A DNA stretch of 64,000 nucleotides from Chondrosia reniformis. Taxonomy: Eukaryota > Porifera > Demospongiae > Chondrillida > Chondrillidae. Below the pieces are notes generated by a model that searched no databases, was not told the origin of the DNA, and was given only the letters and a program-made list of their open reading frames with translations. Shown here piece after piece: positions 51,701 to 64,000 of this stretch (the stretch's first letter is position 1; every line of letters begins with the position of its first letter). Made by a program: the position numbers and the translations under genes. The stretch lies in assembly GCA_947172415.1 (NCBI GenBank), contig OX359193.1:2598501-2662500 (forward strand), given 5' to 3'.

Positions 51701-54700
51701 AGATCTCAGAAGGTGCTTATCGTAAAGTTTAGGCAGCTAAGCACCTCCAAGCACATCTCATGGTATATAGTCCTCAGAAAGTGCTTATCGTGAAGTTTAG
51801 GCAACTAAGTACCTCCAAGCACGTTTCATGGTATATAGCTGTGAGAAGGTGCTTATAGTAAAGTTTAGGCCTAAGCACCTCCAAGCACATTTCATGGTAT
51901 ATTGCCCTCAGAAGGTTCTTATGATAAGTTTCCTCAGCTATTCACATCTGAGCATGTTTCATGATATATAGCTGTCAGAAGGTGCTTATGGTAAAATTTA
52001 GACAATTGAGCACCTCCAAGCACGTATCATGGTATATAGTCCTCAGAAGGTGCTTATCGTAAAGTTTAGACAGCTAAGCACCTCCAAGTGCATTTCATGG
52101 TATATATATTGCTGTCAGAAGGTACTTATAGTAAAGCTTAGGCGGCTAAATACCTCCAAGAATATTTCATGGTAAATGGCCCTCAAGTTTAGGCAGCTAA
52201 GCACCTCCGAGCACATCTCATGGTATATAGTCCTCAGAAGGTGCTTATCGTGAAGTTTAGGCAACTAAGTACCTCCAACCACGTTTCATGGTAAATAGCT
52301 GTGAGAAGGTGCTTATAGTAAAGTTTAGGCATTTCATTGGTAAATGGCCCTCAAAAAGTTCTTATGATAACTTTACGCAGCTAAGCACTTCTCAACATAT
52401 TTCATGATATACATCTGTCAAACGGTGTTTATGGTAAATTTACGGAGTTAAACACCTCCGTGCACATTTCATAGTATATACCCATCAGAAGATGCTTATC
52501 GTGAAGGTTAGCAACTAAGCACCTCCAAGTGCGTTTCATGGTATGTATATTGCTGTATGAAGGTGCTTATAGTAAAGCTTAGGCGGCTAAATACCTCCAA
52601 AAATATTTCATGGTAAATGGCCCTCAGAAATTTATTATGATAAGTTTACACAGCTAAGCACCTCCAAGCACATTTCATGGTATATTGCCATCAGAAGGTG
52701 CTATGGTAAAGTTTGGGCAACTAAGCACCTCCAAACACATTTCATGATATATAACTGTCAGAAGGTGCTTATGGTAAAATTTAGACAGCTAAGCACCTCC
52801 GAGCACATTTCTTGGTATATAGCCCTCAGAAGGTGCTTATGATAACTTTACGCAGCTAAGCATGTTTCATGATATATAGCCCTCAGAAGGTGCTTATGGC
52901 AAACTTTAGACAGCTAAGCACCTCCCAGCACATTTCTTGGTATATAGCCTCAGAAGGTGCTTATGATAAGTTTAGGAAGCTTAGCACCTCTAAGCATGTT
53001 TCATGGTATATAGCCCTCAGAAGGTTCTTATGATAAGTTTATTCAGCTAAGGACCTCCGAGCATGTTACAGGGTATATAGCCGTCGGAAGGTGCTTATAA
53101 TAAGTTTAGGCAGCTAAGCAACTCCAAGCACATTTCATTGGTATATGGCCCTCAGAAGGTTCTTATGATAAGTTTCCTCAGCTATTCACATCTGAGCATG
53201 TTTCATGATATATAGCTGTCAGAAGGTGCTTATGGTAAAATTTAGACAGTTGAGCACCTCCGAGCACGTATCATGGTATATAGTCCTCAGAAGGTGCTTA
53301 TCGTAAAGTTTAGACAGCTAAGCACCTCCAAGTACGTTTCATGGTATATGGCCGTCATAAGGTGCTTATGATAAGTTTACGCACCTAAGCACCTCCGAGC
53401 ACGTTTCATGGTATATAGCTGTCAAAAGGTGCTTTTGGTAAAGTTTGGGCAGCTAGGTACCTCCGCGCACATTTCATGGTATATTGCCCTCAGAAGGTTC
53501 TTATCTTGAAGTTTAGGCAACTAAGTACCTCCAAGAACGTTTCATGGTATATTGCTGTGAGAAGGTGCTTATAGTAAAGTTTAGGCCGTTAAGCACCTCC
53601 AAGCACATTTCATGGTATATGGCCTTCAGAAGGTTCTTATGATAACCATCCGCAGCTAAGCACATCTGAGCATGGTTCATGATATATAGCCGTCAGAAGG
53701 TGCTTATGGTAAAATTTAGACAGGTGAGCACCTTCGAGCACGTTTCATTGTTAATAGCCCTCAGAAGATGCTTATAATAAAATTTAGACAGCTAGGTACC
53801 TCCGCGCACATTTCATAGTATATACCCATCAGAAGATGCTTATCGTGAAGTTTAGCAACTAAGCACCTCCAAGTACGTTTCATGGTATATATATTGCTGT
53901 ATGAAGGTGCTTATAGTAAAGCTTAGGCGCTAAATACCTCCAAGAATATTTCATGGTAAATGGCCCTCAGAAGGTTCTTATGATAAGTTTACACAGCTAA
54001 GCACCTCCATGCACGTTCCATGGTATATTGCCATCAGAAGGTGCATATGGTAAAGTTTAGGCAGCTAAGCACCTCCAAGAACCTTGCATCGTATATGGTG
54101 GTCAGAAGGTGCTTATGGTTAAGTTTGGGCAGCTAGGCACCTCTGTGCACATTTCAGAGTATATAGCCGTCAGAAGGTCCTAATCATTAGGTTTAGGCAA
54201 CTAAGCACCTCCAAGAACATTTCATGATATATAGCTGTCAGAAGATGCTTATGGTAAAGTTTAGGCAGCTAAGAACCTCAGAGCATGTTTCATAGTATAT
54301 ACCTGTCAGAAGGTGCAAGTACCTCTGAGCATATTTCATGGTATACAGCTGTCAAAAGATGCTTATGGTAAAGTTTGGGCAACTAAGCACCTCCAAGAAC
54401 ATTTCATGATATATAGCTGTCAGAAGATGCTTATGGTAAAGTTTAGGCAGCTAAGAACCTCAGAGCATGTTTCATGGTATATAGCCCTCAGAAGGTGCTT
54501 ATGGTAAAATTTAGACAGCTAAGCACCTCCAAGCACATCTCATGGTATATGGCCCTCAGAAGGTGCTTCTCGTATAGTTTAGGAAGCTAAGCACCTTCGA
54601 GCATATTTCATGGTATATAGCTCTCAGAAGGTGCTTATGGTAAAGTTTGGGCAGCTAAGCACCTCCAAACACATTTCATAGTATATAACTGTCAGAAGGT

Positions 54701-56424
54701 GCTTATGGTAAAGTTTAGGCAGCTCAGTACCTCACAGCATGTTTCATGGTATATAGCCGTCAGAAAATGCTTATGGTAAACTTTAGATAGCTTAGCACCT
54801 CCAAGCACGTTTCATGATATAAAGCTGTAAGAAGGTGCTTAGAGTAAAGCTTAGGCAGCCAAGTACTCCAAGCATATTTCATGGCATATGGCCCTTAGAA
54901 GGTTCTAATGATAAGTTTACGCAGCTAAGCACCTCCAAGCACATCTAATGGTATATAGCCCTCATAAGGCGCTAATGTCAAGTTTACACAGCTAAGCACC
55001 TGCGGGCATGTTTCATGGTATATAGCTGTCAAAAGGTGCTTATGGTAAAGTTTAGGCAGCTAGGTACCTCCGCGCACATTTCATAGTATATAGCCGTCAG
55101 AAGGTGCTTATCGTGAAGTTTAGGCAAATAAGTACCTCAAAGCACGTTTCATAGTATATAGCTGTGAGAAGGTGCTTATAGTGAAGTTTAGGCAGCTAAG
55201 CACCTCCAAGCACATTTCATGGTATATGGCCCTCAGAAGGTTCTTATGATAAGTTTCCTCAGCTTAGCCCATCTGAGCATGTTTCATGGTATATAGCCCT
55301 CAGAAGGTGCTTATAATAAAATTTAGACAGCTAGGTACCTTTGTGCACATTTCATAGTATATAGCCATCAGAAGGTGCTTATCGTGAAGTTAATGCAACT
55401 AAGCACCTCCAAGCACGTTTCATGGTGTATATATCTGTCAGAAGGTGCTTATAGTAAAGGTTAGGACACTAAGCACTCCCAAGCATGTTTCATGGTATAT
55501 AGCCCTCAGAAGGTGCTTATCATAAAGTTTAGGCAGCTAAGCACCTTCAAGCAAGTCTCCTGGTATGTTTCTGTCAGAACGTGCTTATAGTAAAGCTTAG
55601 GCAGCTAAGTACCTCCAAACATATTTCATGGTATATAGCCCTCAGAAGGTGCTTATCATAAAGTTTAGGCAGCTAAGCACCTTCAAGCAAGTCTCCTGGT
55701 ATGTTTCTGTCAGAACATGCTTATAGTAAAGCTTAGGCAGCTAAGTACCTCCAAACATATTTCATGGTATATGGCCCTCAGAAGGTTCTTATGTAAAATT
55801 TACTTAGCTAAGCACCTCCTAGCATGTTTCATGGATATAGCTCTCAGAAGGTGCTTATGTTAAGTTTACGCAGCTAAGCACCTTCGAGCATGTTTCATGG
55901 TATATAGCTCTCAGAAGGTGCTTAACATAAAGTTTAGACCGCTAAGCACCTCCAAGCACATTTCATGGTATATGGCTGTCACAAGGTTCTTATGATAAGT
56001 TTTACGCAGCTAAGCACCTCCAGGCACGTTTCATGGTATATAGCACTCAGAAGGTGCTTATTGTCAAGTTTAGGCAGCTAAGCACCTTCAAGAAGGTTTC
56101 ATGGTATATGGCCATCAGAAGGTGCTATGGTAAAGTTTTCGCAGCTAAGCACCTCCAAGCACATTTCATGGTAGTATATGGCCCTGAGAAGGTTCTTATG
56201 ATAAGTTTACGCAGCTAAGCATCTCTGAGCATGTTTCATGATATATAGCCGTCAGAAGGTGCTTATGGTAAAGTTTAGGCAGCTAAGCACCTCCAAGAAC
56301 GTTTCACCATTTATGGCCGTTAGAAGGTGCTTATGGTAAAGTTTGGGCAGCTAGGCACCTCTGCGCGCATTTCATAGTATATAGCCGTCAGAAGGTGCTT
56401 ATCGTGAAGTTCAGGCAACTAAGC
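48743..56424. repeat. Satellite array, about 113 monomers of 68 bp
   Basis: Tandem array of 7.68 kb. An approximate monomer, in three parts: TCAGAAGGTGCTTATGGTAA, AGTTTAGGCAGCTAAGCACC, TCCAAGCACATTTCATGGTA followed by TATAGCCG. Each monomer contains AGGTGCTTA and, 18 bp on, its exact complement TAAGCACCT, so each can fold into a hairpin. Monomers differ by roughly 5-20%. Higher-order duplication is visible: a three-monomer unit of 201 bp repeats at about 49960 and 50161; a dimer of 137 bp repeats at about 55502 and 55639; and longer blocks recur about 1.24 kb apart (51911 and 53151). A few units are truncated. Open frames inside are by-products of the period. Confidence 0.97.
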
Positions 56425-57030
56425 ATGAGAAAACTTAGGTAAGTCTTGGCATTATCAGTCTAAATGTATAGTATTTTAAGCCCTCCTGCATGGGTATCCG
56501 AAACACTATATACTACAGAGAGTCTTATTCTAACCCTGAATAGATTCTAATGTACATTTTGTAGCTACGGCACGCTAAATGCTAAATATCTTGACTCTTT
56601 GCTACTTTGTTCGCAATGTCGTTCAGACTGTTGTCCTTTTGCTTAAAATTCTTTGAAAATCTTCAAAGCTATATATACTTTGAAACAATTTTTGCATATT
56701 GGTAACAAAGTAATATACGATTATTGAATCTTCTCATTACCGCTTCAACTTTTTACTAATTTAATTAGTTTGCTACTACAAAAGCAACTTCCTAACTGAA
56801 AGGATCAAGATTTTTTTCATGTGTATACCATATATTGGATGACTTGGCAATTGGCTTAAAGGCTGCACGTTGCCCCCATGAACTGCATATATAAAAAATC
56901 TTATACATGCACCATTAAGTTCCTACATGCTATATGCCTATTCTCTAAAAAGTAAACCTAAAGAGAGCTTTGGATGAAGATACATGACTGTATGAATGCC
57001 TAGGAATTCATAATTTCATGCTACTGTTTT
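56425..57030. other. Flank between satellite and integrase gene
   Basis: No gene recognised. 56929-56983 recurs at 57353-57428 as an imperfect direct repeat. Confidence 0.5.
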
Positions 57031-57428
57031 GCAGCACCCGTGCAATGGCCAAAAAGTATGTTCTAGATGCACTAATAGTGGATTTCCAAGGGAGATGGCG
57101 AATAATCAATGAAGTATGTTGGGTGCAGCCAAGAGTGCTTTTGCTGACCTTTTAAGTGAAAAAGATGAATATTTCCTGCAAGTGCAATATCCAAAGTATG
57201 GTATGATTAAGCTTATGGAAGAAGAGATAATTGGAGCTGCTGAGATTCAAGGTATAGTTTTTTATTTCCCTGGGAAAAGAAATCAGTATGTGAAAATAAT
57301 GTAAGAGTCATGCATAATAATTTAATCTATGAAAAATCTAAGATACCATTTTCCTACATGCTATATGCCTATTCTGTAAAAAGAGCCTATAGGGGAACTA
57401 AACCTAAAGAGAGCTTTAGATGAAGATA
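56929..57428. repeat. Imperfect direct repeats flanking the N-terminal exon
   Basis: 56929-56983 and 57353-57428 share CCTACATGCTATATGCCTAT and AACCTAAAGAGAGCTTT plus GATGAAGATACA; the second has a 20-bp insertion. They bracket the exon that encodes the N-terminal domain. Confidence 0.8.
57035..57304 (+). pseudogene. N-terminal PB1/ubiquitin-like domain of the integrase-like gene
   Basis: After a TTTTGCAG acceptor-like site the plus strand reads AMAKKYVLDALIVDFQGRWR and IINE. One frame over it continues LGAAKSAFADLLSEKDEYFL, QVQYPKYGMIKLMEEEIIGA AEIQ. The pattern (strand, long helix AAKSAFADLL, strand FLQVQ, M-KL-EEE-I) resembles small PB1/ubiquitin-like domains. It aligns with the first exon of the HECT gene on the other strand (61.2-61.5 kb: VLCDFDGRTRPEL, then SAIKSTLIDLLSGK, FVEIEGSKHDGLIAL). 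The frame change indicates damage. Confidence 0.5.
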
Positions 57429-57626
57429 CAGTTGTCTTTTCTTCCTTCTTTCATCTTCTTCTCCACTGGGTCAGACAGCCGTTTCTGGGAATTCCACCCT
57501 TCATCCGTGATCCTGGGAGTCTTTGTCTTTTTCTTTATCTTGATCTTCTGTGAATCCTTGGCTATGTACATCATCATAACAGATATCTATGAATATACCT
57601 GTAAATTGTTGATCTGCTAAGAGAGC

Positions 57627-58390
57627 ATGATATGTTGGAGAATTGTTACACATGGGGCTATTGATGGATACAGCAGGTTGATTGTCTATTTACATGCTTC
57701 AACAAACAATAAATCTAGAAGAGTATATGAGTTATTTCCGTCTGCTGTTGAAAAACACCAACTGCCATCCCGTGTTCGTTCTGATCAAGGAACAGAGAAT
57801 GTATTAGTTGCACAACACATGCCAGAAGGGCGTAGTGCTGAGAAGCACAGCATGATAATAGGCTGTAGTGTGCATAATCATCACATTGAAAGACTGTGGA
57901 GGGATATGCACAAAAGTGTTACCATACTATTTTACAAAGTGTTTTACTTTCTTGAACACTATAGCCTGCTTGATCATCTCAATGAACTCCATTTATGGGC
58001 TTACATTACATATTTATTCCACTGATTAACCAGTGTTTCAAAGAATTTATTAATAGCTGGAACAATCATCCCATAGTACAGCAGGTCACAAGTCACCACA
58101 GGAATTGTTTACTGCAGGGTGTTTACTTCTGCAAAAACTCTCAAATTCCTGGCCTAGACTTCTTTCATTTAGTTGATGAAACATATGGCATTGATGCTGT
58201 TGGGCCAATTTCACTGTCAGAAGATCTGCAGAGTGTATCAATCCCACAAAGTCCACTAAGATTCTCAGACACAGATATACAGTCATTGAGGGGACTTATT
58301 GATAGATGTGCAGTTTCTGAAAATTATGGAATAGACCTTTATGAAGAGACTCTTCAATTTATTTCAACCCTAACTCTTGTTGCAAACTAG
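57627..58390 (+). pseudogene. Integrase-core (rva_4-like) gene
   Basis: DDE core: GAIDGYSRLIVYLHASTNNK (first Asp), LPSRVRSDQGTENVLVAQHM (second Asp), IIGCSVHNHHIERLWRDMHK (Glu), then FYFLEHYSLLDHLNELHLWA; one frame over, IFIPLINQCFKEFINSWNNH P, and a C-terminal segment to 58390 ending FISTLTLVAN. HGxIDGYSRxIVYLxxSxNN and SVHNxxIERLWRDxxxxVT are hallmarks of an integrase-like family abundant in fish, corals and sponges. A single frame change near 58.0 kb separates the core from the C-terminal part; otherwise it is open. It is convergent with the HECT gene, end to end with 330 bp between. Confidence 0.75.
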
Positions 58391-58717
58391 CTAGTCGTGA
58401 TCAATAACTTTGAAAATCCTAACTCAACTGAGCCTTTTCATCATGTATAAGTATTTATTATTTTGAAGTAGTATATAATATAGTATTGATCATGCGTGAT
58501 ATGATTATAATAAGCACTTGACATAATACAGTCAGCACATGCAAAGTATATAGATAAGAAAAATGTTGGAGCTATATAGTTCTGCAGTAAATATTGGATA
58601 CAGATAAGATAAACATGGCTAGGCTGCAGGACATATAAATGCAATGTTCCATATGTACCCTCACAGAAACTGTCTATATGGCATCCATTTGCCACAAAAA
58701 GGTCTCATTTGTCATGT
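58391..58717. other. Spacer between convergent genes
   Basis: AT-rich, no motif. Confidence 0.5.
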
Positions 58718-61499
58718 CTAATATGGCCATAAATTCCATACAAAATTCTTCATAGTTTGTGTAAGAAGTTGGCAACTCCAGAAAGCTGTCACAGGTATGA
58801 ATTCAACTCTGATCTCAGGAACAATGCAAATACTGGCACCTGTTACGAAGCGTAAGAATAGGCTCAGTTCACCCACTTGCATGTTTCCTATCATTGTTGT
58901 AAGGTAGGATGACACTAAATCATCTTTTACTACTCCATATTCCAGTATTGAAAGAACCTTTGCAGGTGTAATTGTCATCCTGTAGCATAGCATATGCAGA
59001 TCAGAGGCACTCTTCTTCTCCCAGAAAATTTTATGCAGATGTGGGATACTAGAGTGGATTAGTGCTATAGCAGCTGCAGGCTTAACACAGAACTCATATT
59101 GTGCAATTTGTTCCATTAGCATCTGAAGATTTTAAGAAGTTGGAATTTGTCTGCACCCAAACCTTGATAGTATGTTAACAAGATCAGCCGTAACTGCAAT
59201 GGTAAAAGGTACAGAGGAACCAAGTGCTGCCTTCAGTGTAAGTCGCCTAAAATCACTCACAGAATCTGCAAAGGAATCAACAATGATACAGGTTAGAATA
59301 TATAGTAACATTGGGACCAAGAATCATCATATGCTTACAGGCAAGAAGCCACAAGCCAATTATCCTTCCTGGTATAGGAAAGCCATATAAATTCAAACCA
59401 GGCTGAACCATTGGTGTTAGGGTCTTAGCCCCTTCAAAGAGATGTTGGTAGACATTAGCCCAAGATGCAGAAACATATCTTTCTGAACACCTCCTAAATC
59501 AATGGCTTCTTCATCCCTGTATTCAACAAAGAGTGAATACTCGGCTACAATACCACACATGCTGATAACATTTTCAAATATATTGGCTTGTTTCACAATG
59601 TGTTCTGACCCAGGATGAAAGTTTGCTGTCTTAAGGCATAACTCTCTCTCATTATCATCTATATAAATATCGAAATAATTGTTTATAAAAGAACTAAACG
59701 AAAAATGAACTTTTACACCTGTGATGTATAAACTTGCCTTCATGTCCTTCTACAGAGCTGTTTTCCAAGATTTGGTCATTGCTTATTTCTTCCTCCTTCT
59801 ATTAGTTTTAAAAGATTAACATGCAATTATTATGGTGCTTCCTCGTTTAGCTCAATAATCTGGGAAACTAAAATGTACTCAGATAAGTGATTTTTCCAGA
59901 TAATGGGATTGATTTCCTAAATATCGTCATAACATATAGATGCAGTATTACATCACAATTAAAAAAGCCAAAAATGATGCAATAACAAAATGGCTCATTG
60001 TATTACTCATGCTCAATCAATATACAGTAAAGCCATACTATCATGCATGCAAAATAACAACATTTTGCATACCTTAGTATCAAATAACTCATCTAGCACA
60101 TTCTGATCATATGACTGGTTTTCAGCCTAAACAATAACAAGAGCATCATTATAAGTGACAACACTGTCGTTACTGAAGACCAATAGAGAACGGGGATGAG
60201 GCAGATACAATGAAAAAGGAGGCATTACTTCCTTGCTCAGTATGAATTGATACATATCCTGGATCAAAGGAAAATATGCTTTACTATAATCCAGCAGCAG
60301 TATGTGGCTACATAATGTTTACCCCATATATTTGGTCATTCTATATAATTAGATAGCTTTAAATTAGAACTATAGGTGGTGATGGGCTAAACTATGAGCT
60401 ATGGTTGGAAAACACATGATATATTTTGTTGCCATCAGGAAACTTAAAAGCTATCTTTACTCCTGAAGCTGCCCATTGTTCTTCATAATTCTTTGTATAT
60501 GTGCCAAACTCTATATAAAGATGAGTTAATAAACATGCAAGCATGTAGAAGTATATCTTATACTGGTCATCGCTAACTTGAAGCCACTGATCCTGTTTGG
60601 CCTCTTCAGCTTTTCGTTTTCCTTTTTCTTCCTCCTATATGAAGATTATATTTGGTAGGATGTATACAGCATGCAATTTTATTTACTGTAAAAGATGCAA
60701 AATCACTTTAGCAATGTCAGCTTACAAGGATGCCTTTTGATTTTGAACTTTACTGATCATGCTACTTCTACTTAAATACTGGATATTCGCATAAACTGTA
60801 AACATATCTTCTCTCCCGTCAAACACCCAAATCTTGCTTCATTTGAACGCACCATTTACGCTCTAGTTACTGACGCGGCGTTTTTTTGCCGTATTCCTTT
60901 AAAACATACATAAACAGCCTGATATTGCCTCATCTAGCACAAAAAGTTTACACATTTTATCACGTTTTTAAATGACGCTTTGTATTTTCGGCTGTGGAAT
61001 ATTAATTATTTTTCGGAATGGACTCGGTGAACTCGAACAGGGATAGTGAAAAGACCTACAAGAAGGAGTCTAAAGAGAAAAGGTTGACATAAAAAATCAA
61101 AAACTTATGCAGAGTGAGTTGAACCTCCTTCTTCTATATGACGTCACCGACCACATGATTACATTACCAATTACAACATTTACGTCATAGAAAGTTGCAG
61201 TCTTTTAGCCTCTGACTTGTGGTTACCTGCGAGTTTTCGTCTTCTGGATGCTTCCAGTATTGCAGGCATACCTTTTGGCCTTCAATAATGGGTGTTACCC
61301 TGCCCATTAAAGCTATTAGCCCATCATGTTTACTGCCTTCGATTTCAACAAAAGAATCATCTGATACTTTACCAGAAAGAAGGTCTATAAGGGTGGATTT
61401 AATAGCAGAAAGATTGCTATTCTCTTCCTTGATATGATCAGAGGAGGCAAACAACTCGGGTCTCGTTCTACCATCAAAATCACACAAAACTTCCCGCAT
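58718..61499 (-). pseudogene. HECT-type E3 ligase (G2E3-like) gene, broken
   Basis: Minus strand with exon-like blocks. 61499-61227: ATG, then 91 codons (MREVLCDFDGRTRPEL, SAIKSTLIDLLSGK) ending CAG|GTAACC. About 60637-60560: charged EEEKGKRKAEEAKQDQWLQV. 59640-59335: HECT N-lobe FVEYRDEEAIDLGGVQKDMF, then VYQHLFEGAKTLTPMVQP and GRIIGLWL. 59320-59132: SVSDFRRLTLKAAL, then SRFGCRQIPTS. 59122-58718: EFCVKPAAAIALIHSSIPHL, GELSLFLRFVTGASICIVPE, and (in another frame) HTCDSFLELPTSYTNYEEF, where HTC carries the catalytic Cys. HECT ligases pass ubiquitin from E2 to substrate through that Cys. Damage: a TAA after RQIPTS, frame changes, and loss of the NSLSGLARRPIA segment before HTC. Confidence 0.78.
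59744..60555 (-). other. Introns of the HECT gene, no clear coding
   Basis: Between the N-lobe block and the charged exon I find no certain exon. Family members carry a variable spacer here. Confidence 0.4.
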
Positions 61500-61732
61500 T
61501 TAACATTGGGCCCTTCCTCGTCCATTCTTTACAAAAACAAATGCTAGATTACCACTGTGCATGCGCACAAGAGCATGCAGCTTGCTGTCAGATTACTGCT
61601 GCAACCAAATCAACCATTAACCATTCGAACGTACATCTGAGTTTTAAAACTTACGTTTGTAACGTTCAGACATACATTTGAGGTTTGAAATGTATGTCGA
61701 ATTTTTGTTACATTTAGCTTGCCATACGGATG

Positions 61733-64000
61733 TTTCTAAAACCTGGAATGGAATGGGAGTTGTTAAGCGCAAAGTTCTAACAGTTACCTGCGCAAAGCTG
61801 TGAAGTTTGCGGAAAGGTGTGGAGACAACATGGACCAGCTTAAACCATTACTTGCAGCTTGTATGCTGTGAAAGCGTCAATGTTCTCGTAGAAAAGGCAA
61901 CATGGATCAGTATATTGATAGTAAGTGACAAAATGCATAGTAGCAGTTTCAATGCTCATATCTACCTATATATACATATGTGATATACTATACCAAATTA
62001 GTGGTTACTGTAATGAAACATATCTGTGCAAAATATGTAAAAAGTTCGAAATTTCTAAAACTCATTAGGAATGCTCTCTAGTTCTCAGTAAATGCTCAAA
62101 CCAAGTATTTGCTTGAAACCTTTGCATTTGACAGAGTTACAGCCCTAAATGTCATAAAATTCTACTACGTATACCAACTTAATGTATGGTGAGAGATAGG
62201 ACAAAAATTGACAATTACTCCAAAACTTTTAAAACTCATTGGGCATGCAATGCCGACACCAAGTATTTATCATATGATAATGATATTTATTATATTATTA
62301 CAGAGAGTAATGTATAAAACGGAAATTAAATATCATATAATATCCAGAGGTAAAATAATCAGTCTAAGAATATAAATAGCTATGTACCCTCATTAGGCAG
62401 TGATGGCTGGTAACATTAATTTTTGCCTGCAACAAAAGTTTGATAAATGTGCCACACCATCCATCTCCTTATGTCATCCATGTGGCTCTGTATGAGTGAG
62501 AAGTGAATGTGAGGTGAGTTTGGACAATATGGTTAAAGTACAATCTTGGTGTTTATACCTGATCAAAAGTGTATATATGCCCAAGACTGGAAGGCCTTGT
62601 ACAATGAATACTGCAAGGAAGAATGTACCAATCCATTCACATTAATGCAATAGTGTAACACCAACAACATGAATAAAATGTGGCAGCTGCAGTAATTGCA
62701 GAGTGTACACTGACATACCACACTGACATACCACACAGACAAATGCTCCACAGTCGTAGCCATTTTCATGCAATGGCATGGCACAGGGTTGGTTTGTCAA
62801 TCGCCACTCTGTCATGGTGGACTTCATTCTGTGTGTGATCAAACTGATCACTGCCTGTGAGAGTATGTTTGGACTGTGTGCCATCAAGTGGTCTAGGACC
62901 TCAATTGTCTTGTTCTTAAGATACAATACCTATGGTGGGCTCCACTTAATCGCATAACACTTAAAGAAATTCTGGTTATGTAATATGCATTGTAAATGGA
63001 ACTCATGCATGATTAACATTTATACACACACCATAAGTCTGCAGTGACTGTTGCTGCACACTGGAAGTAGTACAGTATCGTAGAGGTCCAGGTTAATCTG
63101 TGATGGTGTTAATGATTATATGTATCATGCTTATGTCTCAGTCTGCAGAGTCACATGTTAGGATTTTGAATTTGTATTTTATCATATACTTCTGGTTTGA
63201 TTAGTTTGTACCAAGCTGCCTCTTTCTCTACATCTTTGCATCTCTCAATTGCTTGCACAAAGATTGACGTAACTGATAAGAGGTTTGATGTGCCCTATGT
63301 ATGGATGAATCTGCTGTGAGCCCATAAGTGCATGTTTCACCAGAGTACAAGGTTATACAACTTACTGTTGCACATGCCCAAGTAGTGGCCAAAACTAAAA
63401 AAGCATCTACAACCTGTGAACAGATAATAGTATTAACTGACATTATTATGTTCACAGTCTAATTACGTACAAGATGTTACTGTATGACGCACACTTCCAT
63501 TCAGCCAATGTTTTGGACGCAGTGTGAGTAGGTGGTCCTCGTATGTTTGAGAAGTGTTTGAAAATGTACTCCATATAGTTTCAACCTTTAACCATGTGAT
63601 AGCAGTAAGTGTACTATCAAAGACTTAGCATGACATACAACAATCTATATTATATTTTACCTGACTCTTTTGTGCATCACTGAGCTCTCACCACTTGTGC
63701 TGTTGCAGCATCACAGGAGACACAAGTGCCAGGAATGGGACTGGATGTTTCACCAGAAAAGATTTCATTGCAGAAGCTGGGTGATCTACACATTCATCAG
63801 GCATGCAGCCATGTATACTGTAGTTTAAAACCACTCACATGGACCCTATCTTCACTAGCTGCAACCACTTTTGTTGCCTGTGTTGGTAGTAGCAACATTT
63901 GGCATTTTCTTTTTTAGGCACTTTTGCCGTAGGGTACCATGGCCCCCAAGCTTAGGTTTGTCTACGCAGAACTTGCATGTACCTCAGTCTACAGTTCGTG
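61733..64000 (-). mobile_element. Second Ginger-like copy, left part, runs off the window
   Basis: Direct repeat of about 37.9-39.99 kb with 90-95% agreement by eye (for example TGATGGCTGGTAA(C/T)ATTAATTTT at 62400 and 38271). Keeps the Ulp1 motifs: YLKNKTIEVLDHLMAHSP and MPLHENGYDCGAFVCVVCQ (62.6-62.9 kb) and the SQVVDAFLVLATTW helix (63.4 kb). A 100-bp segment at about 63465-63550 is extra relative to the first copy. It starts abruptly at TTTCTAAAACCTGGAATGGA, so the long outer repeat is absent or truncated here. Confidence 0.85.

Follow-up and report, generated by a model that had tools for sequence, protein, structure and literature searches.

A probable IS3EU/GingerRoot-type transposon relic in the sponge Chondrosia reniformis, with a transposase and a HECT-type ubiquitin-ligase gene in convergent order

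Introduction

Why should a gene for an integrase-like transposase and a gene for a ubiquitin ligase lie tail to tail in the genome of a sponge, and do they belong together? The question is raised by a 64,000-nucleotide stretch of Chondrosia reniformis chromosome 5 (positions 2598501-2662500; hereafter, the window), in which we found a decayed DNA transposon composed of a DDE transposase (Pfam rva_4) and, convergent with it, a HECT-type ubiquitin-ligase gene. HECT genes annotated as 'G2/M phase-specific E3 ubiquitin-protein ligase-like' (G2E3-like) are multi-copy in fish and in cnidarians, and their products combine an N-terminal ubiquitin-like region, a UBZ-like finger and a short HECT domain. 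Genes of this kind may be linked to rva_4 transposases.

The superfamily that concerns us here is IS3EU/GingerRoot, characterized, in the accessible part of PMC10045372, by 6-bp target-site duplications (TSDs) and mostly TA..TA ends. In fungi, according to the accessible part of PMC12730594, the ends read TAYGG..CCRTA, and families carrying TET (TET+) have an alpha-kinase gene opposite the transposase. The words HECT and ubiquitin are absent from the main text of both papers. We found no literature naming IS3EU together with HECT, subscription papers and Repbase entries being outside our reach, and in wider literature searches we recognized no description of such an element among the matches listed.

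Results

The window locus

A preliminary description of this DNA had placed an integrase-like gene on the plus strand and a HECT gene on the minus strand, tail to tail, and this arrangement holds: the HECT-like gene, in pieces from 61499 down to 58674, points towards the rva_4 open reading frame (ORF; Table 1). Both genes are broken. Of its catalytic motifs, the transposase retains the second D, in LPSRVRSDQGTEN, and the E, in SVHNHHIERLW; it lacks the first-D segment WHxDGxHKL in a motif scan of 30 loci, which recovered this segment in full in 17, in shortened or altered form in 8, and not at all in five, the window included; in four aligned transposase copies the D, D and E motifs are invariant. 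The transposases nearest to the window copy are those of the loci L010 and L011 (62% identity), which the stretch 57986-58390 also matches by tblastn (E about 1e-16).

On the minus strand, the Pfam HECT model gives a weak match (E 0.072, 13.2 bits, under the cut-off of 23.9). We take DEEAIDLGGVQKDMF, GFPIPGRIIG, VTG... and TCDSFLELP, read by eye against known HECT patterns, to be motifs of this domain, and a profile of the C-lobe, built from nine HECT loci outside the window, matches 58677-58802 (L009:2551-2676; E 0.014). From these motifs and this profile, with the Pfam score as weak as it is, the gene may tentatively be called HECT-like. Elsewhere, L041 and L042 (C10:2137466 and C10:2148223) contain the HECT first exon and the upstream terminus region, the remaining gene not being recognized, and look like short deletion derivatives.

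Table 1. Features of the transposase/HECT locus, in window positions (TIR, terminal inverted repeat)
Feature	Positions	Strand	Basis
Abundant dispersed repeat, left of the first-exon-like remnant	56888-56987		Genome matches
HECT-first-exon-like remnant in two frames (57045-57155, 57113-57304)	57045-57304	+	Similarity test; single genomic match
Second dispersed-repeat copy, between remnant and transposase	57329-57559		92% identical to L042 over 235 bases
Transposase ORF, integrase core rva_4	57621-58025	+	Pfam PF24764, E 3.9e-45; motif scan
Transposase remainder, out of frame after a shift near 58000	57986-58390	+	rva_4 positions 142-171, E 2.8e-4, under cut-off
HECT C-lobe piece with presumed catalytic Thr-Cys (IHTCDSFLELP), out of frame with 58718-59131	58674-58802	-	Profile, E 0.014; ORF list
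HECT C-terminal ORF (..LSLFLRFVTG..)	58718-59131	-	Pfam HECT, E 0.072, under cut-off
HECT-like stretch with GFPIPGRIIGLWL	59277-59498	-	By-eye motif
HECT N-lobe stretch with DEEAIDLGGVQKDMF	59417-59749	-	By-eye motif; compare DDGGPRREYF in element C5:4411098
Inner HECT-gene stretch, kept in copy L040	60392-60634	-	DNA 60308-60762 74% identical to L040
HECT first exon (MREVLCDFDGRTR...), N-terminal module	61185-61499	-	Open frame; partial copies L040, L041, L042
Right terminus TATGGCAAGC...GTAACAAAAAT	61701-61726	-	Match to TIR ends of other elements

Convergent pairs across the genome

The arrangement recurs well beyond the window. Searching the whole genome (117,379,552 bases in 15 contigs; all counts from these searches are lower bounds) with Pfam models gave, after clustering, 55 integrase loci (PF24764, E <= 0.01) and 36 HECT loci (E <= 10). 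Nine HECT/transposase pairs lie within 3 kb of each other, where 0.025 would be expected, and all nine are convergent, with gaps of 0.4-1.8 kb; their HECT matches stand above the Pfam cut-off in six cases and under it in three. Two more HECT/integrase neighbours within 10 kb are divergent (at 4.8 kb) and on the same strand (at 7.9 kb). When the nine-locus C-lobe profile was run on the 30 scanned loci, it added L026 (E 1.7e-23), L013 (3.4e-10), L031 (1.7e-5) and the window (0.014), each with the HECT sequence downstream of the transposase and antisense to it. Two HECT N-terminal queries identified 24 loci. Twelve of these have no integrase within 8 kb; of the others, 10 are arranged convergently with one and 2 divergently, where 0.18 adjacent loci would be expected. 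Taken together, convergent HECT C-lobe or N-terminal sequence lies within 8 kb of 17 of the 55 integrase loci, so the preliminary idea can no longer be countered by saying that no other locus has the two genes side by side.

Two further loci were noted in these searches. At L056 (C1:5643151-5646998) lies a second HECT gene that has an N-terminus of its own, points away from the L022 transposase and has no convergent transposase among the loci found. L057 (C2:4597145-4601721) is a 929-bp inverted repeat, 99% identical, adjoining a transposase/HECT locus. In viral contigs, 40 pattern matches yielded no confirmed relative.

Elements bounded by terminal repeats

The evidence that the pair is mobile comes from relatives with defined ends. 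Element C5:4411098-4416282 (5185 bp; ends TATGGGGTGCC) carries both genes in convergent order between roughly 400-bp TIRs that contain 20-bp subrepeats in tandem, and is flanked by the perfect TSD TTGATC; its inner part is copied at C1:5647560-5650904 with 93-96% identity. Element C6:3531176-3537407 likewise has both genes convergent between TIRs, with the perfect TSD ATCACC. At the C4 locus (L014), 65-bp arms, 97% identical, flank both genes, the outer ends not having been located, and C7:3090326-3092705 (TSD CTTTTG) contains the transposase with the HECT N-terminus only. The view of the preliminary description that the two genes may form one mobile unit is borne out by the C5 and C6 elements and by the 17 convergent loci; judged from these bounded relatives, the movement of transposase and HECT gene as a single unit is supported. 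No HECT was found in four more bounded elements, L012, L015, L010 and L011. The last two, at C12:4179426-4182582 and C7:7903081-7906102 (TSDs CGGACG and CGTACG, both perfect), are 99.8% identical over 2639 bp.

In the seven bounded elements, 13 of the 14 ends read TATGG and one L019 end reads TATAG; the 6-bp TSD is perfect in six and agrees at 5/6 bases in L015, only end pairs with at least 5/6 having been considered. TIR length ranges from 50-55 bp (L010, L011) through 78 (L019) and 146 bp (L015) to 350-413 bp (L018, L012, L027). The TIRs of L012, L015, L018 and L027 contain short tandem repeats (in L027, a unit of 20 bp in the right arm; in the others, as read by eye), because of which these ends resemble ORFs.

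The combination of TATGG..CCATA ends and 6-bp duplications fits the IS3EU/GingerRoot superfamily, an assignment made by described features, in which rva_4 is presumed to be the IS3EU transposase. As in IS3EU/GingerRoot elements, so far as the accessible text describes them, there are 6-bp TSDs, ends of the TAYGG..CCRTA form known from fungal families, TIRs, and a DDD/E transposase without the HHCC zinc finger; the TIRs of the bounded relatives exceed the 30 bp given for the superfamily.

The window copy has one such end, the right terminus TATGGCAAGCTAAATGTAACAAAAAT at 61726, on its HECT side and 227 bp beyond the HECT start. Since the terminus pattern had been drawn partly from the window's own letters, its perfect match there is given by construction, and the position was retested with the ends of other elements over the whole window and both strands. 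It is the top place for the L010/L011 ends (20/26 bases, next 16), the L019 end (20, next 17) and the L015 end (19, next 18), and ranks second for L012, third for L018 and seventh for L027. With a single change in each case, this end recurs at L040, L042 and L063. Of the terminal repeats envisaged by the preliminary description, the one on this side was found, but none near 56.4-57.0 kb: a candidate left terminus at 56566 (TACGGCACGCTAAATG; 15/20 bases to the right end, 17/26 to the L015 end) was discarded, since the window is homologous to C1 (L067) from 56432 to 56817, right across the candidate, and since an alignment of the two 90-bp ends did no better than shuffles (197 of 2000 reached its score).

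The HECT protein of the elements

Away from the window, the HECT C-lobe is recognized readily, exceeding the Pfam cut-off in all three pieces (L027, 30.9 bits; L014, 30.1; L019, 26.7). The presumed catalytic site reads Thr-Cys in seven of nine integrase-linked C-lobes and Thr-Tyr in L027 and L029. For the L014 N-terminus, a structural model from four aligned rows (pLDDT, the per-residue confidence, 76.1; pTM, the confidence in the overall fold, 0.64) has the strand-helix order of a beta-grasp, and its best Foldseek matches (E 2.7e-3 at best, with none at or under 1e-3) are the ubiquitin-like domains of USP7 and TBK1 together with FERM and Ras-binding domains, so that an N-terminus of the ubiquitin-like type is predicted for this element HECT. 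The hairpin and helix that follow (CLSCGKSIPLHLLPLHVDKC) we take, by eye, to be a UBZ-like, ubiquitin-binding finger. A PDB sequence search with N-termini from four element HECTs outside the window returned nothing, nor did Pfam on three of them.

Comparison of the C1 with the C5 copy gave w (dN/dS) values of 0.31 in the C-terminal piece of HECT, 0.46 in its mid piece and 0.37 in the transposase. By Fisher tests, p is 0.014 for the C-terminal HECT piece, 0.005 when the mid piece is added to it, and 0.006 for the transposase. In this one copy pair, the substitution pattern shows the HECT coding sequence to be under selective constraint. For the pair L027-L056, HECT dN is 0.42 and dS is saturated.

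The plus-strand module

The preliminary description also held that both genes open with the same small domain, which might bring integrase and ligase together. As regards similarity, the proposal stands. The plus-strand stretch 57113-57301 aligns with the HECT first exon (61188-61499, minus strand) at a score of 58, which none of 5000 shuffles reached and which is the highest among the other 647 of the window's 648 ORFs of at least 40 amino acids (runner-up 38). The VDFQGR half, which sits in a different frame, is weak by itself, its score being reached by 143 of 5000 shuffles. By this similarity test, the plus-strand stretch and the HECT first exon are homologous.

As the beginning of the integrase, by contrast, the plus-strand stretch did not hold up: it is frameshifted, and one of the dispersed repeats separates it from the transposase. 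We do not regard the module as part of the transposase, because it gives a single match in the genome search, lies between dispersed repeats, and is not seen in other integrases, which, where their 5' parts were read, start with a helix-turn-helix, L010 and L011 included. This start was read by eye, with an alignment of four, in the 5' parts of the L010-L015, L018, L020, L022, L027 and L029 transposases, and that of L015, on which alone Pfam was run, matches HTH_23 (E 1.2e-5). Four queries detected no helix-turn-helix remnant upstream of the window transposase. The repeat at 56888-56987 has at least 40 further matches, one being the window's second copy (40 of 1192 candidates scored).

A module joining the two proteins finds no more favour, given the helix-turn-helix start of the other integrases, the single genomic match, and a fold model of the window module (61188-61499) with a mean pLDDT of 46.9; a shared dimerization domain is unsupported. 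Compared with the N-termini of the four other element HECTs, the window module showed no significant similarity (best, 113 of 2000 shuffles). We also considered whether it is an arm of a long TIR and rejected this: blastn of 56000-62500 against the window-covering loci gave no inverted match between the two module copies at E 1e-4, and none was among the 25 of 46 inverted pairs listed. The plus-strand copy would be a stray remnant of a HECT first exon and not a transposase domain.

Flanking repeats

To the left of the locus, a 68-bp minisatellite array occupies 54000-56430 and ends just before the block common with C1:5352838. It contains 35 copies of a 45-nt core and may begin earlier, as the stretch was searched from 54000. 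To the right, a repeat of about 165 bp at 62046-62247 is common to the transposase loci L035, L014, L010, L011, L021 and L026, in some of them in tandem.

Distribution of HECT on the transposase tree

In the transposase tree, 9 of 26 rows bear a HECT label and lie dispersed (8 changes), and no clustering was detected, 430 of 500 shuffles giving values as low. Unlabelled rows may hide a HECT gene, L013, L026, L031, L030 and L018 having later proved positive, and the C6:3765643 locus is outside the tree. Over nine pairs, transposase and HECT C-lobe distances correlate with r 0.30 (p 0.054). The scattered labels fit an old association followed by repeated loss. They could also have arisen by repeated capture into the same slot, because the distance correlation fails when the near-duplicate pair is counted once.

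Discussion

We interpret the window locus as what remains of a DNA transposon of the IS3EU/GingerRoot type, from a family in which a convergent HECT accessory gene is frequent, a reading to which we assign a probability of about 0.82. Such an element would encode a helix-turn-helix and DDE transposase and a HECT-type E3 ligase, convergent between TIRs, and the ligase would ubiquitinate a target that limits the element. We infer that the ligase helps the element because it has been retained and is under constraint in one copy pair, and we regard it as an accessory factor because close transposase-only relatives have moved as well.

Several observations weigh against this interpretation. The window copy itself has neither a left terminus nor a TIR pair that we could find, and 38 of the 55 integrase loci have no HECT seen here. 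Among the copies read, no two-gene copy is intact: in L027 the transposase is frame-broken and the HECT gene has one TAG and a Tyr at the expected catalytic Cys, and the L019 transposase has two TGA codons and a Gly replacing the first Asp. The near-identity and TSDs of L010 and L011 imply that the transposase alone is enough for recent movement and that HECT is not needed for it. Constraint is unsupported for the L014-L026 HECT piece (w 0.92 over 71 codons), and two transposase pairs give w of 0.87 and 1.84. Long co-inheritance finds no support in the distances, as r falls to -0.16 and -0.01 with eight pairs once the near-duplicate is reduced to one. Finally, the C-lobe profile also has same-strand matches, one in L026 (E 0.0017) at the place of its antisense match and two more with E of 0.35 and 0.85.

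A part of these points would also suit a HECT gene that is a passive passenger, captured by chance from the host and without function for the element: transposase-only elements moved recently, many HECT copies have decayed, half of the N-terminal loci (12/24) have no integrase within 8 kb, and the distance correlation is gone once the duplicate is removed. We nevertheless consider a functionless HECT unlikely, as the convergent order occurs in many branches of the transposase tree, constraint on HECT in the C1/C5 pair is similar to that on the transposase, and Thr-Cys is kept in seven of the nine integrase-linked C-lobes. That two unrelated decayed genes became neighbours by chance is hardly credible: the weak Pfam score of the window HECT and the missing left terminus would be expected of such a neighbourhood, but the same arrangement at 17 of 55 loci, and a HECT-side terminus that matches the TIR ends of L010/L011 better than any other place in the window, would not.

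The origin of the plus-strand module is a narrower matter. It may be the first exon of a second, oppositely oriented HECT-type element that landed within or next to the transposase and was afterwards truncated, which is all that is left of the preliminary proposal of a nest of two related elements. The module's homology to the HECT first exon and the existence elsewhere of copies reduced to this exon (L041, L042) speak in favour, as does the spacing, since homology to C1 ends at 56817, 228 bp before the module, compared with the 227 bp from terminus to first exon on the HECT side. No TAYGG terminus was seen near 56817, though, no more HECT exons were recognized on the plus strand, and the module has no close copy, so that we regard a nest as possible while leaning against it. 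Much less probable is the view of the preliminary description that transposases of this lineage genuinely begin with the module as an exon, encoding a dimerizing domain shared with the ligase. The module is on the same strand directly upstream of the transposase, is significantly similar to the HECT first exon, and is followed after ATTCAAG by what we take, by eye, for a possible splice donor; however, the other transposases read, L010 and L011 among them, start with a helix-turn-helix, no second copy of the module was found, and the window copy, missing the first-D segment, is no working transposase.

If the family is indeed a transposon with a ligase as its accessory factor, the question is what the ligase would act on. 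The candidate we favour, tentatively and at somewhat less than even odds, is a host restriction, silencing or repair factor that would be degraded. The transposase or transpososome itself, which the ligase might control or remove, seems a less likely target.

Known systems offer parallels, in so far as the accessible text of PMC12730594 covers them. As in fungal TET+ IS3EU families, a second gene lies opposite the transposase, an alpha-kinase there and a HECT-type ligase here. Like the fungal TET/JBP dioxygenase transposons, the elements described here are DNA transposons with an enzyme proposed for escaping host silencing, but the presumed activity is protein ubiquitination and not DNA demethylation, the host is an animal, and a single superfamily is seen here. 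KDZ (Zisupton) transposons also have an accessory enzyme adjoining the transposase and, unlike the present elements, have 8-bp TSDs and a transposase of a different group.

More broadly, animal IS3EU-type transposons might encode HECT ligases as a counter-defence, and many such animal HECT genes might be transposon cargo and not host expansions; at present we would treat this as a conjecture more doubtful than not. If true, a transposon-borne ubiquitin ligase would be a direct route by which a eukaryotic mobile element edits host protein levels, and the ligase-bearing transposon would stand beside the reported transposon-borne TET/JBP enzymes. The pairing would also give a testable account of the animal HECT genes that are present in many copies.

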